Assembly: GCA_024372495.1 (NCBI GenBank)
Contig: CP099977.1
Span: 682,001-746,000, forward strand
Origin: Pseudarthrobacter sp. Fe7
GTDB lineage: Bacteria > Actinomycetota > Actinomycetes > Actinomycetales > Micrococcaceae
Direction: 5' to 3'
Length of the DNA: 64,000 nt
A program made the position numbers and the translations under genes. Shown in pieces: positions 56,854 to 58,555 of this stretch. Position 1 is the first letter of the stretch, and every line of letters begins with the position of its first letter. The notes under the pieces are model-generated. The model saw only the letters and a list, made by a program, of their open reading frames with translations. It ran no database searches and was not told where the DNA came from.

Positions 56854-57600
56854 TCAGGAAACCGCGGGTGAGGCGGTGACCACCACGTTCTTGCCCCACG
56901 GATCTTCTGTGAAGCAGCTGATGAGGACCAGCCGGTTGGGCACCATGTCCCAGACGGGACTGTCCTTGAGGCCGGACTTCAGGTAGGTCGTCACGCTGTC
57001 CACCCGGTAGCTGATGGTTCCGGCCGGGGTAACAACCTCGAGCCGGTCGCCAACGGCCGCCGCAGAGCTCAGATGGTTGAAGGGAGCGTCCGCCCCGTCC
57101 CAGGAGTGGCCGATGACATAGGTGGTGTTCCCGGAGCCTTTGCCCGGACTGCCAAAAGCCGTGAGCCAGTACCCGTCCTTGGTGGCAGGAGGCTCGATGG
57201 TGCGGCTGGACTGGGCTTCGCCGTCCAGGTCCAGTGGATGGATGGCCACGTCGAAGGAGGCGGCAGGGTAGCGGATGTGGAGTGGCTGTGCAGCGGGCGG
57301 AAGCTGGGGTCCCGCTGTGACTGCGGCCGGCGTTGCCTGGACGGGGGCCGGCATGGCATCCGGCCGGCCTGTTACCGCGATCGGAGCGGCGACACTGCCG
57401 GACGGCACAGCGGCTGTGATGGGGGCTGAGAGCGGGGTGCTGGCGTGGGGCGCCACGTGTACCTGCTGGAACAGCGGGCTGCCAAAGGTAAACGACAGGA
57501 AGGCCAGCACGCCGCAGGAGAGGATGGCCAGGTCGCCCCGGTTCAAGCGCCGCCACGGCCCACGCGTACGGGCAGCGTGCCGGCTCCGTTCCTGTGGCAT
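56854..57600 (-). CDS. Class F sortase
   Basis: 248-residue transpeptidase. N-terminal membrane anchor ([17 protein letters not shown]), a proline/alanine linker of about 60 residues, then the sortase barrel. The catalytic His is in TTYVIGHSW, the Cys in LVLISCFTE; the expected arginine would follow in the C-terminal strand, but WGKNVVV carries lysine, so the arginine is not obvious. It lies downstream of a secreted protein with a C-terminal anchor, its likely substrate, separated by a strong hairpin. Confidence 0.83.
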
Positions 57601-57630
57601 GGCACTCCTCCTGCTTTGGTTCGGTGTTGG

Positions 57631-57671
57631 AAGGAAGGCGCCCTGCCGGGCACTGGCAGGGCGCCTTCCTT
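57631..57671 (-). terminator. 17-bp perfect hairpin between sortase substrate and sortase genes
   Basis: AAGGAAGGCGCCCTGCC (57631-57647) pairs perfectly with GGCAGGGCGCCTTCCTT (57655-57671) around a 7-nt loop. It sits between substrate (stop 57704) and sortase (start 57600) on the minus strand, so it could terminate or attenuate, setting a high substrate-to-enzyme ratio. Confidence 0.7.
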
Positions 57672-57703
57672 GTCACGGAGCCACCGGAAGTGGCCTGTTC
57701 CGT

Positions 57704-58555
57704 CTACCCGGCGGCGTTCACGGAGCGGGACCGGCGGCGTACCGCCACCGCGGCTCCTGCCGCCGCCAGTGCTCCCACGCCGGCAAGCCATGCCGGGCCG
57801 CCGTCCCTGGCGTCAACAGCCGTCTGGGCGTTGAAGCCCTGGTTGGTTCCCACGCTGACGGGGGCTGCCGTCGGAGCGGCCTGGGGTACAGCAACGTGCT
57901 GGGCAGGAGCAGGCTGGGCGGGTTCGGCCGCGGCGACGACGGCAGCGGGCGGGCCCACCACCGGAGCCACGGCTGGCGGCTGCACCACAGGCTGGTCGAC
58001 GACGGTGCGGGGTGTGACGATGGGCGGTGTGACGATGGGCGGTGTGACGACGGGTGGGTCGACGACGGTGGGCGGTGTGACGACGGGCGGTGTGACGACG
58101 GGTGGGTCGACGACGGTGGGCGGTGTGACGACGGGTGGGTCGACGACGGTGGGCGGTGTGACGATGGGTGGCGTCACCACGGGAGGGGTTACGGGGGGAT
58201 CGACGACGACGGGTGGCGTCACCACGGGAGGGGTTACGGGGGGATCAACGACGACGGGTGGCGTCACCGGATCGATCACTTCACCGGGCGGCAGCGGCGC
58301 GCAGTTGGCGACATAGAGGATCTTGCCCGCGTTGGTCCAGTTCAACCCGTGAGGCAGCTTGGGTGGTGTCGGCGGGATGATGTCGGCAGTGTGCTGGGCG
58401 TGACCGCCTATGCCGTTGGCATCCAGTTCCAGCGGTGTCAGGGTTATGCCGTCCCTGTGGCAGACCACCACGCGGTCAGAGGCGGCCATGGCAGGCGCAG
58501 TGAGGCTGATCAGGCCGAGCCCAACCACCCCCAGGGTGGCGAAGGTGCGTTTCAT
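57704..58555 (-). CDS. Secreted proline-rich repeat protein with C-terminal anchor (sortase substrate candidate)
   Basis: 283 residues. A signal peptide ([25 protein letters not shown]) precedes an N-terminal domain (about 26-95, two cysteines, VVVCHRDG and VANCAPLP). About 90 residues of [13 protein letters not shown] repeats follow, then an Ala/Pro stretch. The C-terminus is anchor-like: [12 protein letters not shown], a hydrophobic segment ([17 protein letters not shown]) and RRRSRS. No LPXTG, LAXTG or variant precedes the hydrophobic segment. ATG 58555 has GGGGAG upstream. Neighbouring class F sortase suggests wall attachment through a non-standard motif. Confidence 0.82.
57991..58268 (-). 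repeat. Tandem repeats coding Pro/Val-rich stalk
   Basis: Imperfect DNA repeats encode PPVVTPP and TVVDPPVV units. The clearest pair is 45 nt long: 58166-58210 and 58211-58255 differ by one base, with a third partial copy after them. Such tracts are prone to copy-number change, so length may vary between strains or assemblies. Confidence 0.75.

Follow-up and report, generated by a model that had tools for sequence, protein, structure and literature searches.

The locus described here raises the question of how a sortase might recognize a secreted protein which carries no LPXTG motif. In the window (the whole stretch of 64,000 nucleotides of Pseudarthrobacter sp. Fe7 that was analyzed), a sortase-like gene and the gene of a secreted repeat protein lie side by side, and an earlier note made from the sequence alone had proposed that they are paired through a noncanonical motif, perhaps around NAQTA. 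Based on the comparisons reported below, a conserved stretch near the C-terminus of the repeat protein very probably serves as the sorting signal of the adjacent sortase.

The gene pair and its products

Both genes are on the minus strand and have intact reading frames. The sortase gene (56854..57600, 248 amino acids) lies downstream of the substrate gene (57704..58555, 283 amino acids) after a gap of approximately 100 bases; the ORF list agrees with the positions given in the earlier note, and relatives with the same arrangement were detected. All features described below are also located on the minus strand unless otherwise indicated.

The substrate consists of several parts. An approximate signal peptide (residues 1–25, 58481..58555), read by eye from the translation, is followed by a small Cys/His domain (58277..58483) with the pattern CH...GH..H..DIIPP..NW..C in an alignment of 29 sequences, and by a proline-rich stalk which repeat analysis assigned to tandem repeats coding for VTPP/VVDPP (57975..58268). 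The candidate sorting motif NQGFNAQTA (residues 238–246, 57818..57844) is in frame and conserved in relatives, and precedes a hydrophobic segment and an arginine-rich (RRR) tail (57707..57793), which were identified in the translation and have the same layout in the neighbors of related sortases. Thus, the secreted protein has the layout of a sorting signal at its C-terminus: motif, hydrophobic stretch, and basic tail. The N-terminal domain is perhaps metal-binding. It has no match in Pfam, a fold search gave nothing significant (best PDB match with E 1.3), and, since only one of five structural models was confident, these results are weak evidence for a new fold.

The sortase contains an N-terminal hydrophobic segment and a sortase domain. 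Pfam search of this protein returned no family at E 1. Its best NCBIfam model is the class F sortase family NF033748, with a score of 27.4 bits against a cut-off of 166. Among ten relatives scanned with the same model, eight matched (32 to 191 bits), one of them above the cut-off, whereas two matched no family. The earlier note had called the enzyme a class F sortase; the best profile and the Asn trait discussed below support this name, but the score falls so far below the cut-off that we describe the protein as class F-like and divergent. An AlphaFold2 model of the sortase core, built from 34 relatives (pLDDT 92.9), predicts the sortase beta-barrel fold: VIA-align matched it to 3re9 with Z 16.2 and an rmsd of 2.3 over 127 aligned residues, and the matches listed comprised 50 PDB entries, all named sortases (Z 13.2 to 16.2). 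These matches include 5uus, named SrtF of C. diphtheriae (Z 13.9). No useful PDB relative was found by sequence, the sole weak match being mS33, mostly across an alanine-proline-rich linker. Phage search at E 1e-5 revealed no relative. Plasmid search revealed one record, from Arthrobacter sp. TMP15, whose sortase relative (49% identity over 55% of the query) is publicly annotated as class F.

A heavy-metal P-type ATPase gene (named by eye) at 52773–55266 seems to be split over two frames. Because genome completeness is 78.9%, this split may be an assembly indel.

Conservation and co-location of the C-terminal motif

We scanned the three frames of the minus strand for LPXTG-like pentapeptides with a regular expression. 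NAQTA was found in frame, only PPLTA and NPDTA were found out of frame, and LPXTG was absent from all three frames; therefore, no indel conceals a canonical motif, a possibility that the earlier note had raised against its own proposal. Such a hidden LPXTG could also be dismissed because the motif is retained near the ORF end in 48 of 49 loci (L005–L053), and the one locus missed by the scan (L044) carries NAQTS. The LPXTG anchor model TIGR01167 scored 8.7 bits against the substrate, with a cut-off of 15.9.

The conserved stretch is longer than the NAQTA of the earlier note, NxG-phi-NAQTA in the window, and comparison of relatives gave the consensus N-x-G-phi-N-[AVI]-[QDE]-T-[AGS]. We compared 77 distinct C-termini, whose motif columns are partly imposed because the selecting expression fixed G3 and T8 and limited the residue sets at positions 1, 5, 6, 7, and 9. 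Asn was found in 75 of the 77 at both position 1 and position 5, and position 4 is Tyr, Phe, or Leu in 61. Position 6 (P3) is Ala in 43, Val in 27, Ile in six, and Leu in one; position 7 is Gln in 64, Asp in 12, and Glu in one; and position 9 is Ala in 71, Gly in four, and Ser in two. The stretch preceding the motif is loose in these C-termini, whereas the motif itself is nearly fixed. Its final five residues align in register with LPXTG and NPQTN, and the presumed cut follows the Thr. The idea of a noncanonical signal around NAQTA is thus upheld; its layout, however, is not as foreign to LPXTG as had been suggested, as the two have the register, a P1 Thr, and a small P1' residue in common.

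NAQTA most resembles the class B motif NPQTN (or NPXTG), with which it shares Asn at P4, Gln at P2, and Thr at P1, and class B enzymes likewise have dedicated substrates. On the other hand, P3 is Ala in the window and Ala, Val, Ile, or Leu in relatives (the only residues that the selecting expression allowed) rather than Pro, P1' is Ala, Gly, or Ser, the upstream NxG-phi stretch is conserved, and the best profile of the enzyme is class F rather than class B. Residues beyond the pentapeptide are reported to matter for SrtB of B. anthracis in the available text of PMC11987632. The actinobacterial class E signal LAXTG also has a small residue at P3, but class E enzymes keep the catalytic Arg, and the motif of the window has no Leu at P4. 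An Arg-keeping sortase and a protein whose anchor is preceded by LASTG are present in the same genome; we take them as a putative class E pair.

To analyze the distribution of the motif, we surveyed 121 genomes of the genus, 86 of which match the sortase at E 0.001. Strong relatives (at least 147 bits) numbered 124 in 84 genomes, ten weaker rows being excluded. Searching the DNA for G[YF]N[AV]QT[AG], with position 1 left free, yielded 96 sites in 71 genomes, and the reversed-pattern control yielded none. Except for one, all sites (95/96) are located 214–590 bp upstream of the matched region of a strong sortase relative on the same strand. All 71 site-bearing genomes are within the 84 that have such a relative, and the remaining 37 genomes are without any site. 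The earlier note had named absence of GFNAQTA conservation among homologs as evidence against its reading and had proposed a co-occurrence survey; the former test gave the opposite result, and the latter agrees with the proposed pairing. The exceptional site (L172, genome G117) belongs to an orphan substrate ending in NEGFNVQTA; the 5 kb retrieved for it contain no sortase.

Seen from the enzymes, the strict motif was found beside 95 of the 124 strong sortases and a variant beside 26 (including NVQTA, NVQTG, NIQTA, N[IV]DTA, NLETA, NAQTS, and RVQTA). Neither was found beside three: G098, which has a short sortase frame, G057:C2, and G030:C1:2600685 (unresolved neighbor frame). In a wider set of 137 deduplicated sortases, a hydropathy script detected an anchored same-strand neighbor for 123, and the loose motif was present for 92. 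A related sortase group (L073–L076, TCFQLNDAG) has no motif neighbor directly upstream, an anchored protein being located approximately 2 kb away. Motif types were clustered on the sortase tree (12 changes vs. a shuffled mean of 33), although such agreement is partly expected of adjacent genes. Within the Fe7 genome itself, a broad form of the motif occurs at 21 sites (three for the reversed control), only two of which, both beside sortases, precede a C-terminal anchor; none of the other 19 does so. A second pair of this genome (L055, C1:1466000–1471500) comprises an ice-binding protein with GRGVNIDTA and a sortase of the same branch at C1:1468505. The sortase-substrate pair is real, conserved, and specific.

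The motif also recurs on unrelated proteins. After removal of the last 60 residues, neighbors were grouped by BLAST similarity (E 1e-4 over 50 residues) into cargo groups of 52 (including the CH-domain proteins), 12 (ice-binding proteins), seven, and two members, which have no mutual similarity and all carry the signal. Paralogous sortases adjoin such unrelated cargo, ice-binding proteins included, with the variants NVQTA, NVQTG, and N[IV]DTA. Four members of the ice-binding group were scanned (L055, L070, L071, and L177), and all four match PF11999. One of them (L177) has the Q form RVQTA and a CH-domain neighbor (L168) has the D form; motif type and cargo type are therefore separable. On the TMP15 plasmid, an ice-binding protein with NNGVNVDTA adjoins the gene annotated as class F sortase.

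Most likely, the two genes of the window encode a private sortase-substrate pair, whose signal was not found described in the literature searched; none of the matches listed pointed to it. A reasonable hypothesis is that the signal peptide directs export of the repeat protein and that the C-terminal hydrophobic segment and RRR tail retain it in the membrane, where the neighboring sortase would bind the nine-residue stretch NxG-phi-N[AVI][QDE]T[AGS]. Cys229 would then cut after Thr (NAQT|A), and the enzyme would join this Thr to an amino group, most likely that of a peptidoglycan precursor, so that the proline-rich stalk could project the small CH..H..C domain across the wall to the outside.

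The acceptor is the part of this scheme that other readings challenge best. The enzyme might cut the signal and join the substrate to itself as a polymer or to a lipid, or might merely release it, and the sequence does not reveal the acceptor; we nevertheless regard these outcomes as unlikely, considering that a single substrate is adjacent, that no pilin-like gene was seen by eye in the surrounding ORF list, and that a proline-rich stalk fits a monomer spanning the wall. It is also conceivable that the C-terminus is a plain membrane anchor, for which a hydrophobic segment and a basic tail would suffice, that the gene pair is kept for some other reason, and that the conserved stretch is no cleavage signal. 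This appears improbable, as a plain anchor would explain neither a short, near-fixed stretch beside loose linkers nor its recurrence on unrelated cargo beside the same enzyme family.

Catalytic residues and the intergenic hairpin

Residue check of the sortase located the catalytic His and Cys reported in the earlier note at His165 (codon 57106..57108) and Cys229 (codon 56914..56916, in LISC), both of which are invariant in all 34 rows of the sortase alignment. The place of the catalytic Arg is occupied by Asn238 (codon 56887..56889), which is likewise invariant (34/34). This position was deduced from the ends of structural alignments, in which, assuming a gap-free last strand, Asn238 coincides with the catalytic Arg of S. 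pyogenes SrtA, S. aureus SrtA, and S. coelicolor SrtE1 (which we take to be R216, R197, and R329, respectively). Among the 137 deduplicated relatives, Asn is present at this place in 134 (133 by script and L121 by eye) and Arg in none; the remaining three rows are broken or cannot be read. The Arg is retained in another sortase of the Fe7 genome (CNPRFGAEERIIAYA). Lys237 of the GKN turn was rejected as a substitute for Arg, since relatives have Lys, Arg, Thr, Gln, or Val there while the Asn is fixed.

The earlier note had found no obvious catalytic Arg and considered this of added interest. The observation itself holds, but the missing Arg is a class trait rather than a peculiarity of the protein in the window. 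According to the accessible part of PMC6998099, which cites its authors' earlier analysis (their reference 68), Arg is swapped for Asn in class F sortases of Actinobacteria, so that the replacement was already known; His-Cys-Arg is stated for all sortase classes in an excerpt of PMC13257024. The sortase of the window shares the class F trait of Asn in place of the catalytic Arg. The analysis behind the Arg-to-Asn statement (reference 68) is presumably that of Malik and Kim 2019.

In the mechanism favored here, Asn238 would take over the work of the usual catalytic Arg; a conserved Asn together with invariant His and Cys suggests such a replacement of function. About as improbable as a plain anchor is a sortase that lost catalysis along with its Arg and now serves to bind or chaperone another protein: Arg is missing in all readable relatives, and a class A Arg-to-Ala mutant is reported with strongly reduced or no activity in the text available from PMC13257024, but the invariant His and Cys and the conserved Asn speak against a loss, as may, by analogy, the activity of the class F enzyme of C. 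acnes reported in part of PMC7451113.

A strong hairpin between the two genes had also been pointed out, and it is real. This element (AAGGAAGGCGCCCTGCCAGTGCCCGGCAGGGCGCCTTCCTT, 57631–57671) has a 17-bp stem, a 7-nt loop (AGTGCCC), and no U tail, and the intergenic fold has a z score of -4.99. Of 45 loci with NAQT[AS] that were scanned, 35 have a hairpin with the loop AGTGCCC, two (L083 and L165) combine a similar stem with a different loop, and in the remaining eight the best stem of the scanned stretch is weak or of another kind. In 18 distinct forms of the hairpin, 98.7% of cells pair. The paired cells and the covariation score exceeded those of all 500 shuffles and of all slid versions, the slid control favoring the stem because the stem was defined from these same sequences. 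Three pairs changed on both sides, a value attained in 11 of the 500 shuffles; the number of pair types was not unusual (334 of 500 shuffles). Several explanations could be discarded: an intrinsic terminator with a U tract (a terminator scan found none, and there is no U run), a dispersed repeat (with up to three mismatches allowed, the genome contains a single copy), and a known RNA family (the only Rfam match in the window at gathering thresholds is a c-di-AMP riboswitch located elsewhere, RF00379, 58.5 bits, 38133–38281). The hairpin is probably an attenuator or stabilizer which would keep the sortase less abundant than its substrate.

Class F sortases beyond the genus

Profile search of the order detected matches in 128 of 396 genomes, representing 51 of 109 genera. 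Distinct C-terminal motifs were observed beside some of these distant sortases: NPGL[RS]S[NA]TGVE at four loci of one family (L129, L130, L132, and L134), N[AV]VPxA[AQH]TDGA in two genomes of one genus (L135 and L136), and PVVKTGAYV in seven genomes of one genus. Several other distant neighbors that were fetched had no clear motif. At L135 and L136, three NxVPxAxTDGA anchors form a tandem array with two or three sortases, which may point to a locus for a polymer or for several substrates.

When NF033748 was searched across the class, 64 of 79 genomes had a match. At the 30 loci returned, the Arg place is occupied by Asn in 26 (24 by script, plus L230 and L239 by eye, the latter with an Arg one place further), Ser in three, Asp in one, and Arg in none. 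A same-strand anchored neighbor fitting a loose regular expression was present at 21 loci: 16 have PxG[GS]xxTG (15 by script and L214 by eye; for example, VPSGGAATGGGST, IPDGGVDTGSGPL, and HPKGSVKTGVGG), four have a GAPxTG form, and one (L211) has only AG. No fitting neighbor was found within the fetched flanks of the other nine. Since class F neighbors carry other tags, the tag of the window seems to represent a single branch of a more widespread practice. The Fe7 genome also contains three near-copy class F sortases above the NF033748 cut-off (L056, L058, and L059), whose anchored neighbors end in PAGAPGTG...; the match of one near copy (C1:2931580) contains an in-frame TAG.

The sortase of the window resembles the actinobacterial class F family (NF033748/IPR042001) in its predicted fold, its catalytic His and Cys, the Asn in place of Arg, its host phylum, and the anchored neighbor that class F genes often have. 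It differs in its profile score (27 bits vs. the cut-off of 166), in a short Cys-to-Asn stretch without the CGG...Y form common in most of the 30 loci, and in its partner motif, which is NxG-phi-N[AVI][QDE]T[AGS] instead of PxG[GS]xxTG. These comparisons leave evenly balanced, in our judgment, the proposal that class F sortases as a class use non-LPXTG signals of about 8–9 residues on one neighbor, with Asn for Arg. PxG[GS]xxTG would then represent the main group, NxG-phi-N[AVI][QDE]T[AGS] the Micrococcaceae branch, and NPGLxSxTGVE, NxVPxAxTDGA, and PVVKTGAY private forms of other families within the order. To our knowledge, SrtF of C. acnes is the one characterized class F sortase. Although it bears the same class name, LPXTG or LPQTG use is reported for it in the available portions of PMC13257024 and PMC7451113, which argues against a class-wide rule.

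In the sections available, PMC6998099 describes class F sortases as having no designated function, and PMC13251363 describes their physiological roles as unknown and reports no phenotypic change in A. missouriensis after its four class F sortases had all been deleted. The substrate search in PMC13251363 relied on six LPXTG-like motifs, and, as far as the accessible text of both papers describes them, the screens covered only the Pfam anchor domain or LPXTG-like pentapeptides. If the class-wide reading is true, such screens would miss class F substrates, and the view that these enzymes have no known function would partly be an artifact of the search; nature would also already supply a set of sortase-tag pairs that are orthogonal to one another. 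With a concrete, co-located motif, the question of class F substrates becomes a simple peptide-cleavage test, tag-enzyme pairs become available that may not cross-react with LPXTG tools, and ice-binding proteins and CH-domain stalk proteins can be named as candidate cargo.
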